35,764 nucleotides of DNA, taken from contig JBFLYA010000010.1 of the NCBI GenBank assembly GCA_040757115.1, forward strand, positions 1 to 35,764, read 5' to 3'. The translations under genes were made by a program, and so were the position numbers. This stretch comes from a bacterium (GTDB lineage Bacteria > UBA9089 > CG2-30-40-21 > SBAY01). Position 1 is the first letter of the stretch, and every line of letters begins with the position of its first letter. Below, in pieces: positions 1-21,191 of the stretch. The notes under the pieces are model-generated. The model ran no database searches, was not told where the DNA came from, and worked only from the letters and a program-made list of their open reading frames with translations.

Positions 1-122
1 TTCCACAATCAATTTCTACCTATTTCTATAAATTTCAATCTATTTCTATTATCTTATCTCCATATCACTCTTATCTCCTTATCCCCTTTCTTACACTTTT
101 GATATATAGCCTGAACGGTTAC
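1..122 (-). mobile_element. IS66-like foldback MITE, copy 1 (cut by window edge)
   Basis: Read on the minus strand this matches, base for base as far as visible, the first 122 bases of the 237-bp elements at 15028-15264 and 33425-33661. It begins GTAACCGTTCAGG (minus strand, at 122-110). The other end lies outside the window. It has no coding capacity. Confidence 0.88.
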
Positions 123-289: not shown

Positions 290-480
290 GGTAACTATTC
301 ACCATAGAGACACTCAAGACACAGAGGAATAGAGAGAAGAATAATTTTTTCTTTTGTGTTTTTCGCGTTTTTTTGGTATTTAAAAAGGCTTATAACAGAT
401 TGACAAAATCACTGCTCGAAAGCAAGTATTAAAAGCTCAATAAACAACGAAAGATACGAAAGGTGCGAAAGAGAGAATGT
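290..480. repeat. Degenerate arm and core of a CGCAGAG-type element
   Basis: It starts with a mutated terminus (GTAACTATTCACC at 291). Its interior (cgtgtttttcgcg-like tract, aaaaaggctta, aataaacaacgaaag) is clearly related to the interior of the element at 10814-11059. No matching right end is seen, so this is an old, broken copy. Confidence 0.6.
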
Positions 481-481
481 G

Positions 482-522
482 GTAACCGTTCACCGCAGAG
501 ACACAGAGACGCAGAGAAAAAA
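482..522 (+). repeat. Solo CGCAGAG-type terminal repeat
   Basis: It begins GTAACCGTTCACCGCAGAG and continues with more AGACGCAGAG words. This is the same arm that ends the elements at 2236-2477 and 10814-11059, here without an opposite-facing partner nearby. Confidence 0.65.
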
Positions 523-582
523 TTCGACCTGTGCGGTTAGGTTTAAATAAAATGCAAGAAGCAGATATTCAATGCTACAAAC

Positions 583-2235: not shown

Positions 2236-2477
2236 GTAACCGTTCACCGCAGAGACGCAGAGGAACAGAGAAGACATGGAAATAAATCAGATAACAGAAA
2301 AGATTATTGATGCAATCATTGTCCTACATAGGACATCAAAACCAAATTTGTTAATCAATCATGATATGTCGGTCCTCAAAAGCTTGCACTGATGAAAATC
2401 CGTGATGGAATTCTGCGTCTGGTAAATAGTTTTTAATTTTTTCTCTGCGTCTCTGTGTCTCTGCGGTGAACGGTTAC
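2236..2477. mobile_element. Non-autonomous element carrying a deleted GxxExxxE gene
   Basis: A 242-bp element with inverted ends: GTAACCGTTCACCGCAGAG at the left and its complement, interrupted by one extra repeat word, ending GGTGAACGGTTAC at 2477. The interior holds remnants of a GxxExxxE-family gene (see 2276-2436). The flanking 8-mers do not match, so no target duplication is visible here; a deletion or old age could explain that. Confidence 0.72.
2276..2436 (+). pseudogene. Internally deleted GxxExxxE (PDDEXK-like) gene remnant
   Basis: An ATG-started frame encodes 38 residues: an N-terminus like the family's helix (ITEKIIDAIIVLHR) fused directly to a piece of the C-terminal part (KPNLLINHDMSVLK). 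After a stop at 2390-2392 the family's typical ending appears in another frame, DGILRLVNSF, stopping at 2434-2436. The central part with the nuclease-like residues is missing. The recognition rests on remembered family patterns (K-I-I-A-hydrophobic-HR; LINF-VLK-DGI-RLVN). Confidence 0.6.
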
Positions 2478-3250
2478 GACTATAGATTCTATTTATGCAG
2501 GAAATTAGTGACATTTGGGAAACCATCCTCAAAACTCTACTCCCTGAATTTTTCCTAATCCTTACCTATGTCAGTGACAGTGACAGTGTCAGTGAAGAAA
2601 CTCCTTCAACTCATCCAACACTTCCAACTCTTTCTACTCTTTCAACTCTTCCAGCAGAAGTATAGGCAGGTCTCCCAAGCCTTCATTCTTCTGCAATTTC
2701 TGCCCGTTTTAGTCTGAGGTCTGATGTCTATAGTCTACTGTCTGAATCACACTTCAACCTATTTCACAGGTCGAAAAATTTTATGCTTCCCATAAGATTT
2801 TGCCACTACAAATGGATTTTTTAAATATTTAATTTTCTAACTCATTGATATTATTGATATTTCATTTTTAAAAATGGCAAAAATTAGACCAAAATGGTCG
2901 TTTTAGTATGAAGTTGGGTCAAGATAATCGCAAAGTTATAACCGACTTCCTTATTTTTCAATGGGTTTGGAAACTTATCCCTCTTAAAATTGTCAAAGTC
3001 AGGAAAAAATTTAAAAAAATCCTTGACTTCTATATGGTAGTCTAACCTGTTACGGAAATCAGTTCTGAAGAGTAAATTTTTAGGATTCTTCTTTTTAAGA
3101 TACGCTTTGGGTACAAGATGATATGTTAACTTAAAAATGCGAAACTTGGGTTATGATAAAATATCCTGCCCATCGGCAAAGAAAATGGTAACACCCAAAT
3201 GCCGAAGATATGATATTTAGGCAAAGTGGTAAAAGTTTGTAAATCTTACA
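2478..3250. other. Gene-poor tract with small decayed frames
   Basis: About 770 bases without a convincing gene. A 56-codon frame (2495-2665, +) begins MQEISDIWETILKTLLPEFF and then degenerates into Thr/Pro/Ser words made by short tandem repeats. It may be the 5' end of a dead transposase. A CAGGTCGAA-containing motif at 2757-2775 recurs near 13058-13072 and, inverted, near 527-540. Around 3145-3222 there are loose inverted repeats (TTGGGTTA/TAACACCCAA). Confidence 0.5.
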
Positions 3251-3919
3251 TCAAGAAGATTTCTCAAATGTGACACATACATTGCCCATCAATTTTTTGA
3301 TATTCATAGTGGAAATAATTTTGTCGTAGAATCTGCCCAATATGTCCAGAAGGACGAATCTATGGAGATAGAGTTCGACAAATGAGTAGTATTTTATATT
3401 AATTAAACGGAGCCCCGCTGACTCAAATATCTTAACTAATTTTCTAATACTGCTGTATGTATAATAAGTTTTCCATGATTCTTCACCTCTTACCATTTTA
3501 TGAAACCATAAAGGTGTTAATTTCGACAGGATAAATTCTGGTGCAGTAGGATTTGGAATAGATGCGACAAAAATACCGGATGGTTTTAAAACTCGATAAA
3601 TTTCACGAGAAGTTTTGTTTAAGTCTATAATATGTTCTAATACATAACTAGCAAATACTGCCAGATATTTGTTTGATTCTACTGGGAACATCGATTCAAT
3701 CGAGCACTGCCAACATTTATCTACACATGGATGAACTAATGCACAATCATTTATATCAACACGGTCACAAATATAATTGCATCCAGCATGAATTAGATGG
3801 TTTTCAATAAAAAGATTTTTGCCGGCACCAATATTCAAGATTCGAGGAGTATCTTCTTTCTCCTTCTGTAAAACTCTAATGAGTTGTTTTATAAGACAGT
3901 GTTGAGCAGGTGTTTCCAT
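3251..3919 (-). CDS. Class I SAM-dependent methyltransferase, 5' end disrupted
   Basis: A 222-aa methyltransferase of the Methyltransf_11 type. Motif I is ILNIGAGKN (27-35), the acidic SAM-ribose loop is DRVDIND (52-58), the post-motif region is SYVLEHI (91-97), and motif III is VLKPSGIFVASIPN (110-123). It is the last gene of the polysaccharide cluster, so a sugar or lipid carrier is a reasonable substrate, but this is inferred. The ATG at 3917-3919 has no good ribosome site. The same frame continues upstream through a single TAA (3923-3925) to an ATG at 3995-3997, encoding MIDPIGAYNVALQSGVEKI and more. The gene may therefore be a pseudogene with one nonsense change, or may start late. Confidence 0.7.
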   Translation of the reverse strand: METPAQHCLIKQLIRVLQKEKEDTPRILNIGAGKNLFIENHLIHAGCNYICDRVDINDCALVHPCVDKCWQCSIESMFPVESNKYLAVFASYVLEHIIDLNKTSREIYRVLKPSGIFVASIPNPTAPEFILSKLTPLWFHKMVRGEESWKTYYTYSSIRKLVKIFESAGLRLINIKYYSFVELYLHRFVLLDILGRFYDKIISTMNIKKLMGNVCVTFEKSS

Positions 3920-4187
3920 AAATTATTCGAACTGTGCGGTTATCTTTTCAACTCCAGATTGGAGGGCGACATTATACGCTCCGATAGGGTCTATCATCCT
4001 TACTACTATGAATTCCTCCGATTTCCTGCAGCCCCCGGTGCTCTCCTGATTAGAGATGATATTTCGTAGTCAGAATTGCTGCCTTCCGCCCGTTGCACAG
4101 CCCCGACTTTCCTCCTTCCTTTCGCCATGGCTTATCCTAATTCTTCTGCAATTCTATGAAGATATTTTTTGATATAGTTGTTTTCGC
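3920..4187 (-). pseudogene. Decayed coding tract upstream of the methyltransferase
   Basis: The minus strand holds protein-like pieces in two frames. One, in frame with the methyltransferase, runs from about 4047 to the TAA at 3923. The other is a 40-codon frame starting ATG at 4127-4129 (MAKGRRKVGAVQRAEGSN) and ending near 4008. I do not recognise the product. The sequence GGAGGAAAGTCGGGGCT superficially recalls RNase P RNA but nothing else of that RNA is present. Confidence 0.4.
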
Positions 4188-5645
4188 CTAATTTCTTTTT
4201 AGTGTGCGTAGCAGGCGCATAAGTGCCATTTCCGGCATCCAATTATAAAATCTTTTTTTACACCGCCAGGTGGCTATCAAAGTATATAATTGAACTACTA
4301 TTTTAAGTAGTCCTGTTACTTTGTCTTCCACATCTAAAAATCCTGAGAGTTCAGATACCCGTTCCAGGAATTTGCGGTGTTCATCTGACAAATATGTCAG
4401 GTTAACATGGTTATAATCATAATTTGACCAGTCCTCGAGGCGCTGTGGAAATTTATTTCCCATTTCCTTGCATCGTTCAAACAAATCAGTACCAGGCATA
4501 GGAACAAATAGGGACAACTTGTATAGTTTTGCCTGTGGATTTTCTTCTCGCAGTCGAACCATGAGTTTGAGGGTTTGTTCCACCTCTTGCCGTGTTTCAT
4601 CTGGCAATCCTGCCATGAAACTGTATACCGGGATAATCCCGGCATCACGCAAGTTTCTATTGATTTCCAACACCTGTTCTACCTTGATGTCTTTATATAT
4701 GCTGTTGAGTACCCGGTCAGAGCCAGATTCAACCCCTACGAAGATTTGTTCTACACCAGCCCGACGCATCAGTTGAAGGAATTCTGATGAACTTCTGTGC
4801 AGAAAGTCAACTCGACAGTTAGCATTGTAAATGTGAACTCCCAAACCACTTTCAATAAGCATTTTAAAAATTTGTTCTACTCGATGACGGCTGCCAAAGA
4901 AGTTATCATCCAGAAGGAAAATACCGCCGGCATTATAATTTTTCACCAAATTGGTAATTTGTTCTATCACTTTCTCAGGGGACATACCACGCCAGGAAGA
5001 TTGGTAGAATTTTGTATTATAACAATATGCACAACGAAACTTGCAACCGCGGCTGGTAATAATTGGCAAACTGGCTCTCTTGATTCGTAACGGCTGTGTT
5101 TGATAACTGCTCAAGTCTAACAGGTCATAAGGTAAAGGAGGCAATTGCTCAAGGTCATACAGAGGAGGAGGATTAGTGGAAACTATTTTCCCATTTTTGC
5201 TGTAGCAAATTCCTGGCACATTAGACCATTCTTTTCTTTCCTCCAAAGCCTTGATTAATTCAGAAAAAGATATTTCTCCTTCTCCAACACAGACAATATC
5301 TACCATCTCGGATTGGACTATCTGTTCTGGTAGCAAACTGGGATGAACTCCACCCCAGACGATAGGGAGCTCTGGTGCCATTTTTCTGACGGCTTGAGCT
5401 ATCTCCATAGCGTGCCCAATTTGTGGGCCGGTCATAGTAGTAATACCAACCGCCAAAGTCTGAGGTTTGTTCACGGCGCGACGCAATACATCACGCCACC
5501 CCGGTTCTTTTCGTTGGTCAATGATGGTTACAGAATGCCCCTTTTGAACAAGTGGTGCGGCTACATAGAGTAAGCCCAATGGCAAAATTTGCTCACTGGA
5601 TTTAGTGTAACCTGTATGAGGGAAAAGTAAAACTATGTGTCCCAA
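4188..5645 (-). CDS. B12-binding domain radical SAM protein
   Basis: Counted from the upstream ATG at 5747, the protein has a cobalamin-binding Rossmann domain (about 36-165, with LPLGLLYVAAPL and VWGGVHPSLLP segments), a linker, and a radical SAM core with CKFRCAYC (C235, C239, C242). 'LLDDNFF' and 'GVESGSDRVL' follow. This is the class B (cobalamin-dependent) radical SAM layout, whose members methylate or rearrange carbon centres, often in cell-surface lipids or sugars. I prefer the TTG at 5645 (485 aa): it has AGGAG seven bases upstream and lies just before the domain. The ATG at 5747 directly abuts an AGGAGG, and the 34 residues it adds come from tandem AGAGTAGAAAGT words. It follows the O-ligase gene across a repeat tract. 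Confidence 0.85.
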   Translation of the reverse strand: MGHIVLLFPHTGYTKSSEQILPLGLLYVAAPLVQKGHSVTIIDQRKEPGWRDVLRRAVNKPQTLAVGITTMTGPQIGHAMEIAQAVRKMAPELPIVWGGVHPSLLPEQIVQSEMVDIVCVGEGEISFSELIKALEERKEWSNVPGICYSKNGKIVSTNPPPLYDLEQLPPLPYDLLDLSSYQTQPLRIKRASLPIITSRGCKFRCAYCYNTKFYQSSWRGMSPEKVIEQITNLVKNYNAGGIFLLDDNFFGSRHRVEQIFKMLIESGLGVHIYNANCRVDFLHRSSSEFLQLMRRAGVEQIFVGVESGSDRVLNSIYKDIKVEQVLEINRNLRDAGIIPVYSFMAGLPDETRQEVEQTLKLMVRLREENPQAKLYKLSLFVPMPGTDLFERCKEMGNKFPQRLEDWSNYDYNHVNLTYLSDEHRKFLERVSELSGFLDVEDKVTGLLKIVVQLYTLIATWRCKKRFYNWMPEMALMRLLRTLKRN

Positions 5646-5745
5646 TCCTTTTCTCCTGGAAATAGGAAGTAGAGAGTAGAAAGTAGAGAGTAGAAAGTAA
5701 GGAAAGACAAGCCTTTTCTTTCTCTTTCTACCCTCTAGTATTTTC

Positions 5746-6005
5746 ATCCTCCTATGTGCCGACTTGTCGGCATGTCCGTTCTCCTGAAAATGTAAAATGG
5801 GACGCAGATTTTCGCAGATGAACAGGATTAAAATTAATTTTTTATTATTGTATTTCTATAGTTATTTCCTTATTGTTTCTTGATGTTTTTAGTGCTTTAG
5901 TGGTTTTTCTTTAAAATCCTGTTAATCCTGTAAATCTGCGTCCTATTAATTTTCATCCCCCTTTGTGCCCACTCCCTGTAGGCATGAGCGTTTCTCCTGA
6001 AAATA
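5746..6005. repeat. Two hairpin/micro-ORF modules around a 150-bp foldback
   Basis: The gap between the O-ligase and radical SAM genes is entirely repeats. Two modules (5746-5793 and 5947-6005) read on the minus strand ATTTTCAGGAG, a short spacer, ATG, a hairpin, then GGATGAAAAT. Their stems are TGCCGA/TCGGCA (5757-5762 with 5767-5772) and TGCC/GGCA (5966-5969 with 5981-5984). Between them, 5797-5946 is a foldback with ends GGGACGCAGATTT and AAATCTGCGTCC. A third module is at 10583-10640. Confidence 0.65.
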
Positions 6006-6011
6006 CTTTTT

Positions 6012-7523
6012 TCACCGCACAGACGCAGAGGAAACCACAGAGATATTTTTAAAATTATTTCTTCTCTGTATCTCTGGTTTATCACTTTCTTGCTTTTGAT
6101 TCCAAAAATGAATGGCAAATATCATTGCCGCAAGTGTCCAAAAAACACGGACAGTAGTATTTATTCGCAAGTTCCAGTCCCCCACTCCCTGAACTAATAT
6201 TGCAATGAAGCCCGCAAGAGAACCCAAATTAATTGCATTCAACAGATTATCTTTACCTTTAAGGTTTGAAATTCCTACCCTGATGACCATAAAACAGATG
6301 GATAAGAATAAGAGTATTCCAAAGATACCCTGTTCGGCGAAAATCAATAGGTAAATATTATGAACCGGCGGGTCCATTTTCCCCCACTGTATACCGGAAT
6401 AGTCATAATCCGACATTACAAAGGTAAAAGAATTTAAACCTGTGCCCCACCAAAAATTCGATTGTATCATCCGCCAGGCAATGTACATACATTCAACCCG
6501 GGAACTAATTGATGCTGGATCGCTAAGAATAAACTTTTGGATTATAGTCCCTGAAAATAAAAGTCCAATGACCAATGCAGAGCCCAAGATAAATATCAGT
6601 GTAATAATTCTCTGGCGACCCACTGCTGGACGTAAGAACAATATTACCATAACGGAGGTTGCGAAACTAATCCAACCACCACGAGAAAGCGTTAATATGA
6701 GTGCCATTTCTCCAAATACCAGAATGGCTATACATAGTGCCTTGTACCAAATCGAGATTCGGACAAATATCAAGATAAATGCCAGAGGTAGTAACATTAC
6801 AAGATACCCAGCAAATATATTTGGATGACCTAACATCGCCCCGACCCTGCTGGCGGTTCTCATTCCCAGTTCTTCAGTAACCATTTCGGGAGATTGACCC
6901 AGTCGCTGGAGTGGAAGGTTCAATCCACAAAAATGTTGCATCAATCCATATATTATCTGCAAGAATACCCCTATCATCAATGCCGCGACAACCAATTTTA
7001 TCTGATTACGAGTTTTTCCATAATTGACAAGATATATAAAAAGTAACAACATTTTTGTCATAGAGATAATTTCATAAGCGGCCATAGTGCGATAGGGGGA
7101 AAAAATTATGCTCCCAAGTCCCAAAATGATGAGCAATAACCAAAATATCGCTACCGCAGGTATTTGAATTGATAACCGTCTGGTGATAAAGTCTTTAATC
7201 AAATATGCATACAATATGACGAGAAACAAATCTGTTACCTCGATACGCAATGCCCATTCTCCACCAAAGTGAGGGTAATATTTCAAGAATTTAGACAAAC
7301 TCAATGGGAGAACCATGAGCAGTCCAATGAGAAAAAAAACTCGTGGGTTTCCCGAAAGTATGGCGATTACAGAAATGAATAAACTTAACAAAACAGAATA
7401 ACCGATAATTGGAGTGTTTTCAAAAGCAACAATCAATACTATGCACCCTATAATAGAAAAAAGAAAGATTAGAATTATATTGCCTGGAATTTTATGAGAA
7501 TATCGTACCTGGAGATGATTCAT
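6012..7523 (-). CDS. O-antigen ligase/polymerase family membrane protein
   Basis: A 503-aa polytopic membrane protein with about a dozen hydrophobic segments and one large periplasmic loop late in the chain (roughly 340-400) containing GTGLNSF and the conserved 'H-N-x-Y-L' signature (PPVHNIYLLIFAEQG). This is the Wzy_C/O-antigen ligase (PF04932) layout. Such proteins polymerise or ligate lipid-linked sugar chains at the periplasmic face. It follows the Wzz-like gene by 14 bases. The last ~25 residues (PEIQRRNNFKNISVVSS...) are encoded by a CGCAGAG-type repeat that has run into the reading frame, so the native C-terminus probably ended near the last membrane segment. Polymerase and ligase cannot be told apart here. 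Confidence 0.85.
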   Translation of the reverse strand: MNHLQVRYSHKIPGNIILIFLFSIIGCIVLIVAFENTPIIGYSVLLSLFISVIAILSGNPRVFFLIGLLMVLPLSLSKFLKYYPHFGGEWALRIEVTDLFLVILYAYLIKDFITRRLSIQIPAVAIFWLLLIILGLGSIIFSPYRTMAAYEIISMTKMLLLFIYLVNYGKTRNQIKLVVAALMIGVFLQIIYGLMQHFCGLNLPLQRLGQSPEMVTEELGMRTASRVGAMLGHPNIFAGYLVMLLPLAFILIFVRISIWYKALCIAILVFGEMALILTLSRGGWISFATSVMVILFLRPAVGRQRIITLIFILGSALVIGLLFSGTIIQKFILSDPASISSRVECMYIAWRMIQSNFWWGTGLNSFTFVMSDYDYSGIQWGKMDPPVHNIYLLIFAEQGIFGILLFLSICFMVIRVGISNLKGKDNLLNAINLGSLAGFIAILVQGVGDWNLRINTTVRVFWTLAAMIFAIHFWNQKQESDKPEIQRRNNFKNISVVSSASVR

Positions 7524-7537
7524 AAGATCTATTTCCC

Positions 7538-9766
7538 TTATTTTGAAACAATTATCAACCCCATTTTACGGAGATTGCATTTATTCAGTATGTTTCTATA
7601 AGATTTGATTTCTGACCAGTGGCTTACATTCGACATCACCAGGAGCATTGTGCAATCCACAATTGATGGGAAGGCAAATGCTGATGGGTCTTCCATCACA
7701 GAATCCGAACTCAGCAGAACAACATCAAATTGTTCCTGCAATTGGGTTAGTTTTTCCTTCAGTTGATTTGATGTCATCAGATGGGTCATTCCATAATTGC
7801 TCTTGCCGGCAGGTAAGAAAAATACTTTGGGATAGTCAGTTAGGTGAATGAGTGAATCAGTTAATGGCTGGGTCCCATCAAGCATATTCAAGAAGCCCGG
7901 CGAGGAAGAAACTTTAAATTCTTTACTCAATAGATTGTCTTTAAAGAATGCATCTATAATCAGCACCTTGCGATTTTGATCTATAGCAAGAAACTCAGCC
8001 AGTTCTAATACAAACTGACTTGTTACTTCGGGCAAGTAAGGACATGAAAGCATCAGGCAATACCCTAGTTCAGAGCCACCAAGTTCGAAGTGCAACTGCA
8101 TGGCTAATTTGTGATATGATTTGTTGTATTGGTTATTTTTCTTATACTGTCTCTCAGACCACCCTGATAGCCAACCCTTTTTCTGTTCAGGGATGAATTT
8201 GGAAGGTGTTTTATTCCTATGTATGCCCAAATGAATATTTCCATATACTGGAATATCCAGGATATGTCCAACATCATCTTCACTGTAAATAGTTTCATTA
8301 AAATAGTTAGCAATGAAGCCGGCAATGATGCCTAATAGTATTCCTATCAGCACGGCTATAAACAAATACAGTTTTACCTTTGGCCGTATAGGTTTCTCCG
8401 GTATCTGGGCTGTTTCGATAAGTTTCAAACTTGCAGTTTTCTCTGATTCAGTCACTGCGGAGATAAAAGCTTGTCGCTGTTTACTCAGTAAAGTCCGATA
8501 TTCCGTATCTGCCAGAACAAGTTCCCTCGTGAGTCTCTGCAAAACACGCTGTTTGAAAGGCAAGTCTTTCAGACTATTTTTATATTGATTTACAATCTCC
8601 TGGATTTCGGTTTCCCCTGCTCGAAGTTGAGCCAATTGAACCAGGAGGTTAGTGCGCTCAGCACGTAAACTGGACCAGATTGGATTGGATTTTTCTACTT
8701 TACCGCTAATGACCATTTCTTCCGACTCTTTAAGCATATCCTTCAACTTGCTAATATTACTTTTTAATTCCTCGACTTCCTGAGAATCCTCTGTATATCT
8801 ATTCTGCATTTGAATCAACATCATTTCATAGCTTAGCAGATTTGCCTTCATCTTGCTGTGAATTTCGTTGAGACTCAGAGACCGAGAATCAATCTCCATT
8901 TGTCCTTCATTTTGAAGTAAACGCTCTATCTCCGCCAGGCGTGCTTCTAATCCCTCGATGGATGCCCTGGTGGTTAATAATTCTGCCTCCTGGTCAGTTA
9001 ATATCTTGACATCACTATGCTCTTTTTCGAACTCAAATTTGATATTGTTCTTAACAACATAATCCTCTAATTCTTTTTCTATCTTTCCCAAATTTTCGTG
9101 GGCTCTTTTCACCTGTGTATTCAGGATATTAGCGGCAGATATCGCTTCCTCTCCGTGTTGTTGTCTCCTATATTGGAGATATACCTCAGTGAGTTCATTA
9201 GCGATTTCCGCCACTCTCTTGTTAGGACCAAGAAGACTAATCTCGGCGACATTAGAGTTGCCAATGGCACGAACATTGATGCCCTTCTGGAAATCAAAGA
9301 TAGTTCTTGCTAATTCTATTTCTTCCGGTGTAAGATTAAATGGACTTTTCTCAGGTGGAAAGAAAAAATTCTTAACGCGTTTGTACTTCCGTCCAATCCA
9401 TGAACGACTCCACATATCGGTGATGTGGCGTATCAGTGGGTGATAGACATCGTCATACTTAAGATTAAGGTTCTCTACAACTTTTTTCACCAGCGGCCCA
9501 AGTTTGACCATTTCTGCCTCGGTTTTAGCCTCTTCTGCCTTGCGAAAAACATTCCACTGCCCATAGAATTGATCTTTAAGTTCATCTTTTTCCTTCTCGA
9601 CCAAAATCTTAACCGAAGCTTTGTAGACCGGCGGAAATAGTTGAATGTAAAGCAGAGTTAGAGCCACCGTAAATAGACATGTGCCCAGCACAATCCATTT
9701 GTACCGAATGGTAATATTCCAAATTGTGTTTATTGACCGGCGGACATCAAAGGAATCAATTTCCAT
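7538..9766 (-). CDS. Wzz/GumC-type chain-length protein with degenerate BY-kinase domain
   Basis: A 742-aa inner-membrane protein. It has a first membrane helix at about 22-42, a Wzz periplasmic domain, a long coiled coil (about 200-420), a GNVR-like region (PFKQRVLQRLTREL), and a second helix at about 463-490 preceded by the proline-rich 'PEKPIRPK'. The cytoplasmic part (about 550-742) aligns with bacterial tyrosine kinases in fold order, but its ATPase motifs are gone. The Walker A position reads CPYLPEVTSQF with no GK[ST], Walker A' is VLIIDAFF, and Walker B is VVLLSSDS. No C-terminal tyrosine cluster is present. It should set chain length together with the Wza channel encoded 3 bases upstream, without its own kinase activity. 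Confidence 0.88.
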   Translation of the reverse strand: MEIDSFDVRRSINTIWNITIRYKWIVLGTCLFTVALTLLYIQLFPPVYKASVKILVEKEKDELKDQFYGQWNVFRKAEEAKTEAEMVKLGPLVKKVVENLNLKYDDVYHPLIRHITDMWSRSWIGRKYKRVKNFFFPPEKSPFNLTPEEIELARTIFDFQKGINVRAIGNSNVAEISLLGPNKRVAEIANELTEVYLQYRRQQHGEEAISAANILNTQVKRAHENLGKIEKELEDYVVKNNIKFEFEKEHSDVKILTDQEAELLTTRASIEGLEARLAEIERLLQNEGQMEIDSRSLSLNEIHSKMKANLLSYEMMLIQMQNRYTEDSQEVEELKSNISKLKDMLKESEEMVISGKVEKSNPIWSSLRAERTNLLVQLAQLRAGETEIQEIVNQYKNSLKDLPFKQRVLQRLTRELVLADTEYRTLLSKQRQAFISAVTESEKTASLKLIETAQIPEKPIRPKVKLYLFIAVLIGILLGIIAGFIANYFNETIYSEDDVGHILDIPVYGNIHLGIHRNKTPSKFIPEQKKGWLSGWSERQYKKNNQYNKSYHKLAMQLHFELGGSELGYCLMLSCPYLPEVTSQFVLELAEFLAIDQNRKVLIIDAFFKDNLLSKEFKVSSSPGFLNMLDGTQPLTDSLIHLTDYPKVFFLPAGKSNYGMTHLMTSNQLKEKLTQLQEQFDVVLLSSDSVMEDPSAFAFPSIVDCTMLLVMSNVSHWSEIKSYRNILNKCNLRKMGLIIVSK

Positions 9767-9769
9767 AAT

Positions 9770-10540
9770 TTACTCCTCTTCTCCTAAAATTTCTATTAAC
9801 CGTAATGTGGTCAGGATATCAATAGCTCCTGTAAGGATTTTGTTTATATGCTGGTCGATAAATATATCTACACGGGCAATGAAGGTCTTTGGAACGAAGA
9901 TTATATCATCCGCCTGCAAGGGGACATTGTGCAAAGTTATGTATGAAGCACTCTGACCTTTCAACTGCAAATTAACGCGGGTGGCGGTAAGGTAATTATC
10001 TTCGGTAACTCGAATGATTATGACGCTGTTTCGTTTCGCCTCATTGGTGAAGCCACCGGCACGAGTTACTGCCTGAAGAGCCGTGGCGGCATCGTGGAGA
10101 GATACGATTGACGGAGTAGTAACTTCGCCGATAACATATATCACCGGCGGCTGAAATTTTGTTACAATTACTGTTACTTCCGGCTCTTTCAAGCGGTGTG
10201 AAAACATCTCGGTTAACTTTTTATCCAATTCCCCGGGCGTTAAACCGGCTGCCTTAACATCGTCAAGGATAGGTAGAGATATGTAACCGTCAGGTCTGAT
10301 GGTGCATACACGGGTTATCTCAGGATGCTTAAGTAAAACTACTTCAACAATGTCCTCCGGGACAAGAACATATTCTTTATGAAACCGTGTCGTAGCCACC
10401 GCGATTTCAGGCAAGACCGACATACGAATTTCATCACCTTTACTAATCTTCGCTGACCGATTAGTGGTTACACATCCCTGTGTCAGTAGCATAATTGTAA
10501 AAATTACTATAACTTTAAATAATCTTTCCGTCTTTTTCAT
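9770..10540 (-). CDS. Wza-type polysaccharide export lipoprotein
   Basis: A 256-aa protein starting MKKTERLF at 10540, with a lipoprotein signal ending LLTQGC. Residues about 50-130 form the Poly_export domain (VLVPEDIVEVVLLKHPEI, then RPDGYISLPIL), followed by SLBB-like beta-grasp segments (IYVIGEVTTPSIVSL and AVTRAGGFTNEAKR). Such proteins form the outer-membrane exit channel for capsule or exopolysaccharide. The frame stays open upstream to a GTG at 10726, but that stretch is pure repeat sequence, so I start at the signal peptide. The stop is 3 bases before the next start, a tight pairing typical of wza-wzc. Confidence 0.92.
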   Translation of the reverse strand: MKKTERLFKVIVIFTIMLLTQGCVTTNRSAKISKGDEIRMSVLPEIAVATTRFHKEYVLVPEDIVEVVLLKHPEITRVCTIRPDGYISLPILDDVKAAGLTPGELDKKLTEMFSHRLKEPEVTVIVTKFQPPVIYVIGEVTTPSIVSLHDAATALQAVTRAGGFTNEAKRNSVIIIRVTEDNYLTATRVNLQLKGQSASYITLHNVPLQADDIIFVPKTFIARVDIFIDQHINKILTGAIDILTTLRLIEILGEEE

Positions 10541-10582
10541 AATCTTAATTCGTAGGTATTTAGTCTGTAATAAAAGGGAAGA

Positions 10583-10718
10583 ACTGGAGAAACGCTCATG
10601 TCCACAGGGATGGACACAAAGGAAGATGAAAATTGAGTTGAAACGCAGGATAGAGCCTGCGGCTACCAACCTTCCCGAGTCCCGAACCCCGAGTTCCGAG
10701 TCCCCATTTTCAGGAGAA
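10583..10718 (+). repeat. Hairpin/micro-ORF module followed by GC-rich interspersed repeat
   Basis: 10583-10640 is the third copy of the module seen at 5746-6005, here on the plus strand, with stem TGTCC (10599-10603) and GGACA (10612-10616). It is followed by an inverted copy of the GC-rich repeat at 35532-35764 (AGCCTGCGGCTACC, CGAGTCCCGAACCCCGAG, ending ATTTTCAGGAGA). Confidence 0.7.
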
Positions 10719-10805
10719 ATAGCCACTTTCCCTTTCTCCCTTTTCCCTCATTTACACTATCTACTACCTGCTTTTCTTTTATTTATCAATGTCATTTTTA
10801 GCAAC

Positions 10806-11067
10806 CGTTACTTGTAACCGTTCAGGTAATCCTTTACCGCAGAGACGCAGAGAAACAGAGAGGAAAATATCTTTTTTTTTCGTGTTTTTCGCGTTTTTCG
10901 GTGTTTAAAAAGGCTTAAAAACAGTTAGTCGAAAGTCCGTATTAAAAGATTAATAAACAACGAAAGACCCGAAATGTACAAAAAAAGGAAATCTCTGTCT
11001 CTGGTGAATAGATTTTAATTTTTTCTCTGCGTCTCTGTGTCTCTGCGGTGAACAGTTACCGTTACTT
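10806..11067. mobile_element. GxxExxxE-derived non-autonomous element with 8-bp target duplication
   Basis: The element proper is 10814-11059 (246 bp). The left end is GTAACCGTTCAGG then TTACCGCAGAGACGCAGAG. The right end is the complementary arm ending GGTGAACAGTTAC. It is bounded by perfect direct repeats CGTTACTT at 10806-10813 and 11060-11067. Just inside the right arm, CTGGTGAATAGATTTTAA encodes LVNRF-stop, the usual end of a GxxExxxE protein; the rest of that gene is gone. The left terminus combines the 237-bp MITE end with the CGCAGAG arm, linking the two subfamilies. It inserted into the 3' end of the glycosyltransferase gene. Confidence 0.82.
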
Positions 11068-14089: not shown

Positions 14090-15031
14090 ATGTCTTTTAC
14101 TATTCTTCGCACTGGTGTTGGTTCATCACCATCAATATCCACCATTAAAACACTTCAAAAATTAGGTGTAAGAGTTATAGGTGTGGATAGTCATCCGTTA
14201 TCTATTGGTTTTTATTTTGCCAATGTTGGATATTGCATCCCAAAGGCAGATGCACCTGATTATATTTCTACCTTAATAAAAATTTGTAACAAAGAAAAAG
14301 TGAATGCTATCTTACCCGCTGTAGATGAAGAATTAGTAGTTTTATCGAGGCATAAAAAAGAATTTGAAAAAAAGGGTATTTTGCTTGCGGTGGCAGAAAA
14401 GAAAGTAATTGAAATCTGCTTTGATAAACTAAAAACTTACAACTTTTTTCTTCAGAATAACATTTCGACCCCTTCTACTTTTGATGCCTTAAAGGTTAAC
14501 TTAAAAGAAATAATCTATCCCAGTATTATCAAACCCCGCTTTGGTCGCGGACAGCGCGATGTCTATAAGATTAATAATCAAAGGGAGTTTAAATTTTTTA
14601 GACAGTATGTTAAAAAGCCTTTAGTTCAGGATTATATTGAAGGACAGGAATATACGATTGATATTCTGGCTGATTTTAATAGTAAAGTTTTATGTCTTGT
14701 GCCGCGAAAAAGACTTCAAGTTGAATCAGGTATCTCAATTAAAGGAATAACAACTTATAAAAAAGAAATAATTGATAGTTGCCTTGATATTGTCCAAAAA
14801 TTAGGCATAATTGGACCGGCTAATATTCAATGTTTTATTGATAAAAACAATACCTTACTTTTTACTGAGATTAATCCAAGACTGGGGGGAGGAGTGGCAC
14901 TTTCAGTCGCCGCTGGTTCAAATATTCTGCCAAATTTAGTCAGATTACTTCAAGGTAAATCAGTAAAACCGTGCCTTGACTTCCAGGAAGATTTATTAAT
15001 GTTACGATATTGGGAAGAAAAATTTATGTAA
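14090..15031 (+). CDS. ATP-grasp enzyme, CarB/PylC-like
   Basis: A 313-aa protein with an N-terminal pre-ATP-grasp Rossmann part (ILRTGVGSSPSISTIKTLQK), a central ATP-grasp domain (IIYPSIIKPRFGRGQRDVY, then LVQDYIEGQEYTIDIL) and the metal-binding end ALLFTEINPRLGGGVAL-like segment (TEINPRLGGG). The family joins a carboxyl-phosphate intermediate to an amine or thiol; the substrate is unknown. I start at the ATG at 14090, which has GAGGAG 7 bases upstream; the frame is open further up but there runs through repeats. The stop codon is formed by a MITE: the G of the final ATG and the whole TAA belong to the element at 15028. The native C-terminus may be shortened. Confidence 0.85.
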   Translation: MSFTILRTGVGSSPSISTIKTLQKLGVRVIGVDSHPLSIGFYFANVGYCIPKADAPDYISTLIKICNKEKVNAILPAVDEELVVLSRHKKEFEKKGILLAVAEKKVIEICFDKLKTYNFFLQNNISTPSTFDALKVNLKEIIYPSIIKPRFGRGQRDVYKINNQREFKFFRQYVKKPLVQDYIEGQEYTIDILADFNSKVLCLVPRKRLQVESGISIKGITTYKKEIIDSCLDIVQKLGIIGPANIQCFIDKNNTLLFTEINPRLGGGVALSVAAGSNILPNLVRLLQGKSVKPCLDFQEDLLMLRYWEEKFM

Positions 15032-15264
15032 CCGTTCAGGCTATATATCAAAAGTGTAAGAAAGGGGATAAGGAGATAAGAGTGATATGGAGATAAGATA
15101 ATAGAAATAGATTGAAATTTATAGAAATAGGTAGAAATTGATTGTGGAAAACAACAAATTTCCATAAATTTCTATTAGTTTCTATTAATTTCAATTTTTT
15201 TAATAATATCTCCCTATCTCCTTAATCTCCACATCTCCTTTTGTTACACCACCTGAACGCTTAC
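15028..15264 (+). mobile_element. IS66-like foldback MITE, copy 2
   Basis: A 237-bp element with termini GTAACCGTTCAGG (15028-15040) and CCTGAACGCTTAC (15252-15264), identical throughout to the copy at 33425-33661. The interior is a long imperfect foldback built from GGAGATAAG and TAGAAATAG words. The flanking 8-mers (AAATTTAT and GGAATTTG) do not match; the right flank has been overwritten by GGAATTT words. Confidence 0.9.
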
Positions 15265-15335
15265 GGAATTTGGAATTTGTGATTTGGAATTTCATAGCCA
15301 TATCTGGGTCAAATTTCGATTAATAAGTGCTATAA

Positions 15336-20456: not shown

Positions 20457-21191
20457 GGTAACTAGTGCTCTGTCGCTACTCAATTGATGTCCCCCCTGGC
20501 CTAATCATTACCCACATCTTTTAGTGGACAGATTAGATAGAAATTCCAAATTCCAAGCACCAAATTCCAAATAAATTCCAAATTCCAAACACTAAATTCC
20601 AAAGTTTATATTACAACGATAAAAATTCATTTAGACTTTTCAATAATTGAAGAAAAAATTTTCTTCAATTCTATTGCCTCCTTGAAAAGCCTTTCTCCTT
20701 CTTGTTTAAATTTTTCATCGTTAGTTCCAATTATTAATCTTAACCAATAAGCAGATTCTTTTGATTCTTTACGACAAATCTTTATTCTCATCTTAAAATC
20801 TTTCGAGCCTAAAGACTCATTTGCCTCAATATAGTTTGCTCCAACTGAACCCGAAGCCCTAATTATTTGCTTTACATATTCGATATTAGTAATAGTTTTA
20901 GGTAGTTTCTTACAGAATAAAGCAACCTCTTGAGCAAATTGATAAGTTCTTTCTTCTAAATCATATTGTTTGGAATTTTGAATTTTGGTCATTGGAATTT
21001 ATTTGTATTTTGGAATTTGTGATTTGGAATTTTGCCACTCACTCCGCTCTCCTGCAATCTCTAATCTCCCCTTTATAGTTTATCCTTGCTTACCTCATCT
21101 TGTTACCCAACTTGTGGGTAACGATAAGACTCCCGCCAGCGGGGGACAACGGCCAATCAATCACTTGAATGGCGACAGAGCACTAGTTACC
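20457..21191. mobile_element. Cassette with long inverted ends carrying a four-helix-bundle gene
   Basis: The outer 20 bases are a perfect inverted repeat, GGTAACTAGTGCTCTGTCGC at 20457-20476 and its complement at 21172-21191. Imperfect pairing continues for about 75 bases (shared TCAA, GAT, GTCCCCC, CTGGC and TTACCCACA boxes with gaps). Inside, AAATTCCAAATT words flank a single gene on both sides. No transposase is present. No target duplication is visible with these boundaries. Confidence 0.78.
20627..20992 (-). CDS. Four-helix-bundle protein, S23/IVS family
   Basis: A 121-aa all-helical protein of the TIGR02436 'four helix bundle' type, first known from 23S rRNA intervening sequences. It shows LEERTYQFAQEVALFCKKLP, an IIRASGSVGANYIEANES signature and a final ESKESAYWLRLI helix. 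The biochemical role is unknown. The first residues (MTKIQNSKQYD) are encoded by the same AAATTCCAAA words that flank the gene. It is the only gene inside the inverted-repeat cassette at 20457-21191 and is not part of the dcw operon logic. Confidence 0.88.
   Translation of the reverse strand: MTKIQNSKQYDLEERTYQFAQEVALFCKKLPKTITNIEYVKQIIRASGSVGANYIEANESLGSKDFKMRIKICRKESKESAYWLRLIIGTNDEKFKQEGERLFKEAIELKKIFSSIIEKSK

Follow-up and report, generated by a model that had tools for sequence, protein, structure and literature searches.

A GxxExxY nuclease gene between inverted heptamer arrays, and hairpins of the same arms, point to a mobile repeat system that bears IS66-type ends in one phylum

Genes of the GxxExxY family were found between inverted arrays of short repeat units in many phyla, the arms being inherited together with the protein, and gene-free hairpins built from these arms, some of which still contained codons of the gene, were enriched in genomes that carry it. 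Gene-bearing units had inserted in operons and hairpins in coding genes, and the nuclease was under selection. These observations point to an undescribed mobile repeat system behind very common genomic repeats. We regard it as fairly probable that this system is RAYT/REPIN-like, with a PD-(D/E)XK nuclease at its core, and would have been captured by IS66 ends in the phylum of the window (the whole stretch of 35,764 nucleotides analysed here). The initial annotation of the window, in which the arms were the ends of an IS66 transposon with GxxExxY genes as cargo, was partly supported.

According to the proposed mechanism, the unit would comprise a minimal PD-(D/E)XK nuclease gene and 7-base units in inverted arrays (CRCNRAG/T, period 8–10). 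The nuclease may recognise its own arms, either in the form of heptamer arrays or folded into a hairpin of single-stranded DNA, and its cleavage would set off a process by which new sites acquire copies of the hairpins and, on rare occasions, of the gene; gene and hairpins would function together as RAYT genes and REPINs do. In the window's phylum, IS66-type tips, in which GTAACCG is joined to the arm start TTCACC, would enclose the unit and the derivatives formed from it by deletion, and an IS66 transposase would move them conventionally with 8-bp duplications. Since we infer the role of the nuclease in moving the repeats, we put forward only tentatively, at somewhat under even chances, the wider claim of a new class of mobile element, in which a lone Cas4/RecB-type PD-(D/E)XK nuclease would spread hairpins of its own heptamer arms without a DDE, HUH or site-specific recombinase and be the source of the CACAGAG/CACGAAG/CGCAAAG-type repeats of environmental genomes. 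If true, this would provide a family and a candidate enzyme for common unexplained intergenic repeats, as well as a function for the large uncharacterised family PF13366, and because each gene is accompanied by its predicted binding site, the question is testable in a simple assay. Open-access literature, sequence and family-name searches returned nothing linking PF13366 to repeats, and an earlier description may exist elsewhere.

Inverted arrays flank the gene across phyla

A total of 84,980 species genomes were scanned, most of them metagenome assemblies, and loci were obtained from many phyla, Methanothrix included; the tree-wide alignment being too diverse, a narrowed one was used, so that the first 80 loci are the best matches to one clade and are biased. 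Outside the window's phylum, two-sided arms were present at 127 of 146 intact GxxExxY genes versus 2 of 357 control ORFs (Fisher p=2e-95), the controls being size-matched ORFs of the same loci, non-genes included. Arms were located relative to the boundaries of the protein domain, as right arms can lie inside the ORF end. The 127 loci harbored inverted arrays of CRCNRAG/T units, most of them without IS66-like tips, and independently drawn genes of one other phylum had arms in 26 of 27 cases. Although many of the genomes are metagenome assemblies, chance or an assembly artefact is refuted by the size of this effect and has a negligible probability; moreover, arms were consistent in independently assembled genomes, and the arm-bearing loci included those of the isolates Stieleria tagensis (L114, arms ACCACGAAGGACACGAAGAGCACGAAG) and Bacteroides finegoldii (L293).

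Inner arms in the window's phylum comprised CCGCAGAG, CCACGGAG, CGCAAAG, CACGAAT, CGCAGAT, ACAGGAT, CATGAAG, GGAGAAA and GGGATAAGG, nearly always inverted around the gene. CGCAGAG, the arm initially described, turned out to be one type among many, the arm sequence tracking the protein. Indeed, arm type followed the protein tree and was inherited together with the protein: 16 arm-class changes were counted on a tree of 94 proteins whose arms had been classed, versus 40.3 after shuffling (minimum 34, 300 shuffles), and between loci of different phyla, the more identical the proteins were, the more similar were their arms (Mantel r 0.31, p=0.002, from only 24 named loci). Both parts of a RAYT/REPIN architecture were found, namely a gene with the repeat on its flanks and scattered hairpins that each consist of two inverted repeats. 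No excess of target duplications was detected in other phyla at arm ends without GTAA tips, and Rfam contained no family for the repeats or hairpins. Spread by phages or plasmids was considered and rejected, with no GxxExxY match in phage records and 7 matches in 72,556 plasmid records (L061 query); viral contigs gave one match.

GxxExxY is a predicted Cas4/RecB-type nuclease

The L001 protein matched PF13366 (E 2e-46) and that of L061 matched TIGR04256 (E 2e-44), both above the curated cut-off (GxxExxY / PDDEXK_3). An AlphaFold prediction reached a pLDDT of 96, and the best solved folds retrieved with Foldseek were Cas4 and lambda-type exonucleases, a modest similarity with an E of only 4e-3; sequence search returned no convincing solved structure. 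Residues D, ExK, Q and Y were conserved in 178–186 of 186 proteins, the D, E and K of the active site in 184–186 of them, and therefore the D-ExK core, the QxxxY motif and the matching fold of RecB/Cas4 PD-(D/E)XK nucleases were all present. Between orthologous insertions, dN/dS was 0.08–0.16 with dS near saturation, and the arms were still recognisable. Judged by its modelled fold and conserved residues, GxxExxY is a predicted Cas4/RecB-type PD-(D/E)XK nuclease with an intact active site under purifying selection.

Copies of GxxExxY within one genome were mostly less than 70% identical, and the gene itself would therefore rarely move. It persists instead of multiplying, as do RAYTs, which are low-copy, mostly vertically kept genes with inverted repeats at their flanks (PMC3116915, PMC8049555).

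Gene-free hairpins accompany the gene and retain parts of it

Among 301 genomes of one phylum, 34 had CCACRGAGNCACRGAG and 58 had the gene, 22 having the two together (odds ratio 11.8, p=4.5e-10); of the 14 genomes with at least 6 copies of the repeat, 12 carried the gene. Copies were often arranged as inverted pairs of the form TTCACC-units-loop-units-GGTGAA, mostly of 57–73 bp there and of 79 bp in the planctomycete G038. Genomes held up to about 130 such pairs, 57–79 bp long and uniform palindromes, and from 0 to 258 repeat matches. Four example hairpins folded far better than shuffled sequences (z -5.5 to -8.5). CACRGAG repeats were abundant where the resident gene has that arm type (24 genomes, p=5e-4), and a like trend for the CACGAAG pattern came from two genomes only.

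A 79-bp hairpin of G038 (L356) retained LKEGIKRFV, the GxxExxY C-terminus, and gene remnants were found inside hairpins of two phyla. Since hairpins keep gene codons, at least some of them are internal-deletion derivatives of the gene form, as in the window. This argues against homing, in which the nuclease would cut gene-free hairpin sites and repair by arm homology would copy the gene form in, hairpins being targets and not progeny; an empty insertion site without a hairpin, between purM and purH (see below), counts against it as well. We consider homing unlikely, even though the arm ends without target duplications, the exact tips TTCACC/GGTGAA common to gene and hairpins, and one intergenic spot with different repeat types in two species would fit it.

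Against the RAYT/REPIN-like system itself stand the lack of target duplication at arms without GTAA tips, the rare movement of the gene, and CACRGAG repeats in two genomes with no detectable GxxExxY gene (about 103 matches in G160 and 16 in G131), which are either orphan repeats or the trace of a lost gene. Nesting within other palindromes was also weakly indicated (7 of 24 versus 0.7 expected, and 4 of 72 versus 0.14), partly by related copies.

Units insert in operons and hairpins in coding genes

In four Verrucomicrobia genomes, the element lay between purM and purH, and its right arm supplied the C-terminal residues together with the stop codon; in G354, purM was followed by AAACC and the start of purH, i.e., an empty site. 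A 1189-aa methylase-like protein of G103 contained two in-frame hairpin insertions, and in-frame insertion was also seen in a homologue in G136; such insertions explain recurrent peptides such as HHRDTEAQ..LRASVV in annotated proteins. In several Chloroflexota (L327:1790-3457 and others, open frames of 528–571 aa), GxxExxY was fused to the N-terminus of PurM with the active-site motif kept. Where the neighbours were co-directional, the gene had their direction in 72 of 81 cases and the opposite one in 9, which suggests dependence on read-through transcription.

This common orientation with both neighbours, the low copy number and vertical persistence in operons, the conserved catalytic residues and the PurM fusion could also be taken for a host function, namely a domesticated repair or defence nuclease with hairpins that serve as functional sites, in the manner of Chi or processing signals, and movement as a thing of the past. 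The patchy distribution of the gene, its varying load of hairpins from genome to genome and the hairpins inside coding genes oppose it, and we hold this reading to be quite improbable.

Deletion derivatives in the window

The features of the window are compiled in Table 1. As had been noted at the outset, elements 1 and 2 have similar inverted arms and each a piece of a GxxExxY gene: the arms were complementary (84% over 49 nt at 2234-2282/2431-2479 for element 1; 78% over 45 nt at 10825-10869/11016-11060 for element 2), and the right ends of both elements were 92% identical over 66 nt.

Table 1. Repeat elements and related features in the window
Feature	Position	Strand	Basis
Internally deleted GxxExxY element (element 1)	2236..2477	+	inverted arms; end-to-end alignment with L005
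Element 1, left arm	2236-2282		
Element 1, N-terminal gene scrap	from 2276		
Element 1, right arm	2431-2477		
Deletion-derivative element (element 2)	10814..11059	+	inverted arms; right end like element 1; 8-bp duplication; copy beside L003
Target-site duplication, left copy CGTTACTT	10806..10813	.	sequence
Target-site duplication, right copy CGTTACTT	11060..11067	.	sequence
Lone left arm GTAACCGTTCACCGCAGAGACACAGAGACGCAGAG, partnerless (truncated copy)	482..524	+	98% complementary to right arms of elements 1 and 2
Degenerate element-2-like remnant (arm CACCATAGAGACACTCAAGACACAGAGG plus interior)	291..477	+	74-79% direct repeats with interior of 10843-10990
Gene-free hairpin, GACGCAGAT/ACAGGAT arm class	5801..5946	.	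inverted arms 5813-5840/5913-5940
Degenerate gene-free CGCAGAG/CACAGAG hairpin	6011..6085	.	sequence; weak fold, z -1.3
MITE, IS66-like tips GTAACCGTTCAGG/CCTGAACGCTTAC	15028..15264	+	direct repeat; 237 bp
Second copy of the 15028 MITE	33425..33661	+	98% identical to 15022-15271
Third, truncated copy of the 15028 MITE at window edge	1..122	-	inverted repeats, 98-100%
Four-helix-bundle IVP gene (PF05635/TIGR02436)	20630-20992	-	within 20457-21191

Element 1 starts with GTAACCGTTCACCGCAGAGACGCAGAG and ends with CTCTGCGTCTCTGTGTCTCTGCGGTGAACGGTTAC, and both of its gene ends are of GxxExxY origin, with MEINQITEKII at the N-terminus and a C-terminal scrap that closes with RLVNSF-stop (the LVNSF-stop of the initial annotation) before the right arm. 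It matched tip to tip a gene-bearing element of this genome, L005 (472 bp, with one stop, TAG, in the gene), from which it differs by the absence of about 230 bp from mid-gene. Its flanks, AAAATTTC and GACTATAG as read from the sequence, formed no target duplication. Element 2 begins with GTAACCGTTCAGGTAATCCTTTACCGCAGAG, where, as initially described, the MITE terminus GTAACCGTTCAGG is joined to the CGCAGAG arm, and ends with LVNRF-stop plus the arm CTCTGCGGTGAACAGTTAC. LVNRF-stop, the sole gene part left, would be weak evidence of a gene remnant on its own, but is common to element 1 and to another copy beside L003. An exact 8-bp duplication, CGTTACTT, lies on both sides of element 2.

Other window copies had arms of classes which also frame intact GxxExxY genes: the GACGCAGAT/ACAGGAT class of the hairpin at 5801 recurs around L006, L042 and L043, and the 15028 MITE has inner arms of the GGGATAAGGAGATAAG class, matching L008, a class which frames the genes L008-L010. 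Its second copy is bounded by a target duplication, CTATTTTT, at 33417-33424/33662-33669 (read from the sequence). Thus, element 2 and the 33425-33661 copy both have the marks of a MITE, i.e., a short non-coding derivative with ends common to a gene-bearing element and a target duplication. Apart from these, a 106-bp tandem repeat (2.2 copies) occupies 35532-35764, with an inverted partner, TCTCCTGAAAATCGGGACTCG, 25 kb away at 10646-10720.

IS66-type ends in the window's phylum

The genome of the window gave 68 TIGR04256 matches, 45 of them over the cut-off and about 19 near full length, in agreement with the initial view that many copies are internally deleted. The check proposed in the initial annotation, for intact genes between such arms, had a positive outcome in this genome: in L001, L002 and L005, an element of about 460 bp has GTAAC..TTCA-CGCAGAG arms immediately on either side of the gene, which is intact in the first two and has one stop in the third. 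The predicted 8-bp duplications were exact at copies with GTAA..TTCAGG tips and differing inner arms (L012, TTATACAC; L015, GATAGGTG; L017, AATTTTTT), whereas none was exact at the CGCAGAG-armed L001, L002 and L005. In the sister species G005, the L015 site is uninterrupted with a single GATAGGTG, and the L002 site is occupied by a shortened version in which only part of the gene is present. The L006 site was rejected as a further empty site, the sister species having a different repeat there; in this one intergenic spot (L006 site/L140), one species has a GxxExxY unit and the other a GGTAATTGGTAACTGG palindrome. In L008, L009, L010 and L020 of the window's genome, GxxExxY units lie inside a second set of outer ends, CGACCTGTGAAATAGG, L010 with the 8-bp duplication AATTTTTT.

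GTAANCGTTCAGG occurred 526 times in the genome versus once for the reversed pattern. IS66-type transposases with GTAACCGTTCA ends are present in the phylum, and GTAAC..TTCA tips are common to them and to GxxExxY units; a decayed IS66 transposase gene of this genome (L031) is bounded by GTAACCGTTCAGGTA/TACCTGAACGGTTAC, with similar tips in related genomes (L336, L337). IS66 ends begin with GTAAGCG and generate 8-bp duplications (PMC11946415); a GTAA start with such a duplication was found at element 2, the 33425 MITE, L012, L015, L017 and L059, and was lacking at most loci in other phyla. No IS66 transposase (PF03050) was found inside GxxExxY units, separate IS66 copies being present in the phylum. 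On account of the matching tips, the 8-bp duplications and the empty L015 site, there is good support in this phylum for an IS66-like transposase as the mover of the units, and to that extent the initial proposal was correct; it did not extend to other phyla, where the gene-plus-arm unit occurs mostly without GTAAC tips, nor did the view of the arms as transposon ends with a cargo gene hold.

The same tips, duplications and empty site, the IS66 transposases with matching tips, the units nested in other palindromes and the four-helix-bundle genes described below would also suit GxxExxY as a passenger with no role in movement, units and hairpins being moved by other transposases (IS66 type here) or by host replication or repair, which comes close to the initial annotation. 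We rate this as distinctly unlikely, as the sequence of the arms goes with the protein even between phyla, IS tips and duplications are absent from most loci elsewhere, and the active site is under strong purifying selection.

Comparison with known systems

The closest parallel to the favoured system is RAYT/REPIN, with its low-copy, mostly vertical gene flanked by inverted repeats and its scattered, non-autonomous hairpins of two repeats (PMC3116915, PMC8049555). However, RAYT is an HUH tyrosine nuclease and GxxExxY has a predicted PD-(D/E)XK Cas4/RecB fold; no HUH tyrosine (Y1) transposase was found in the unit, the PD-(D/E)XK domain being its only gene. The GxxExxY repeats are, furthermore, arrays of at least three 7-base units, and the unit spans many phyla. 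The units of the window's phylum resemble IS66 and its MITEs in their GTAAC/GTAAGCG..TTCA tips and 8-bp duplications (PMC11946415), but have no transposase, and outside the phylum most lack tips or duplications. Mobile insertion cassettes and passenger-gene MITEs likewise hold a single non-transposase gene between inverted ends, whereas GxxExxY arms are gene-specific and track the protein tree. Rickettsia palindromic elements, likened here by their mode of insertion, are palindromes in frame within protein-coding genes (PMC10969869); unlike them, GxxExxY hairpins have a known gene-bearing parent element. Cas4, lambda exonuclease and RecB share the fold and the D-ExK-QxxxY motif, but GxxExxY is a single 117-residue domain with repeat arms.

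Intervening sequences of 23S rRNA contain a small ORF for a four-helix-bundle protein (IVP) between complementary arms. This protein is unrelated to GxxExxY, whose units lie outside rRNA genes. The IVP gene of the window has inverted AAATTCCAA arrays around it and GGTAACTAGTGCTCTGTCGC arms outside, and 6 of 8 plasmid IVP genes, mostly cyanobacterial, lay between inverted arrays of short repeats of about 7 bases (e.g., CCAGTGA, AATTCAA); a scan of viral contigs for the four-helix-bundle gene gave no match. Because these genes have the same heptamer-array design and no nuclease, the arms may not depend on the nuclease. In two plasmids, of Anabaena and Nostoc (L363, L364), a four-helix-bundle gene was inserted between cas2 and cas1.
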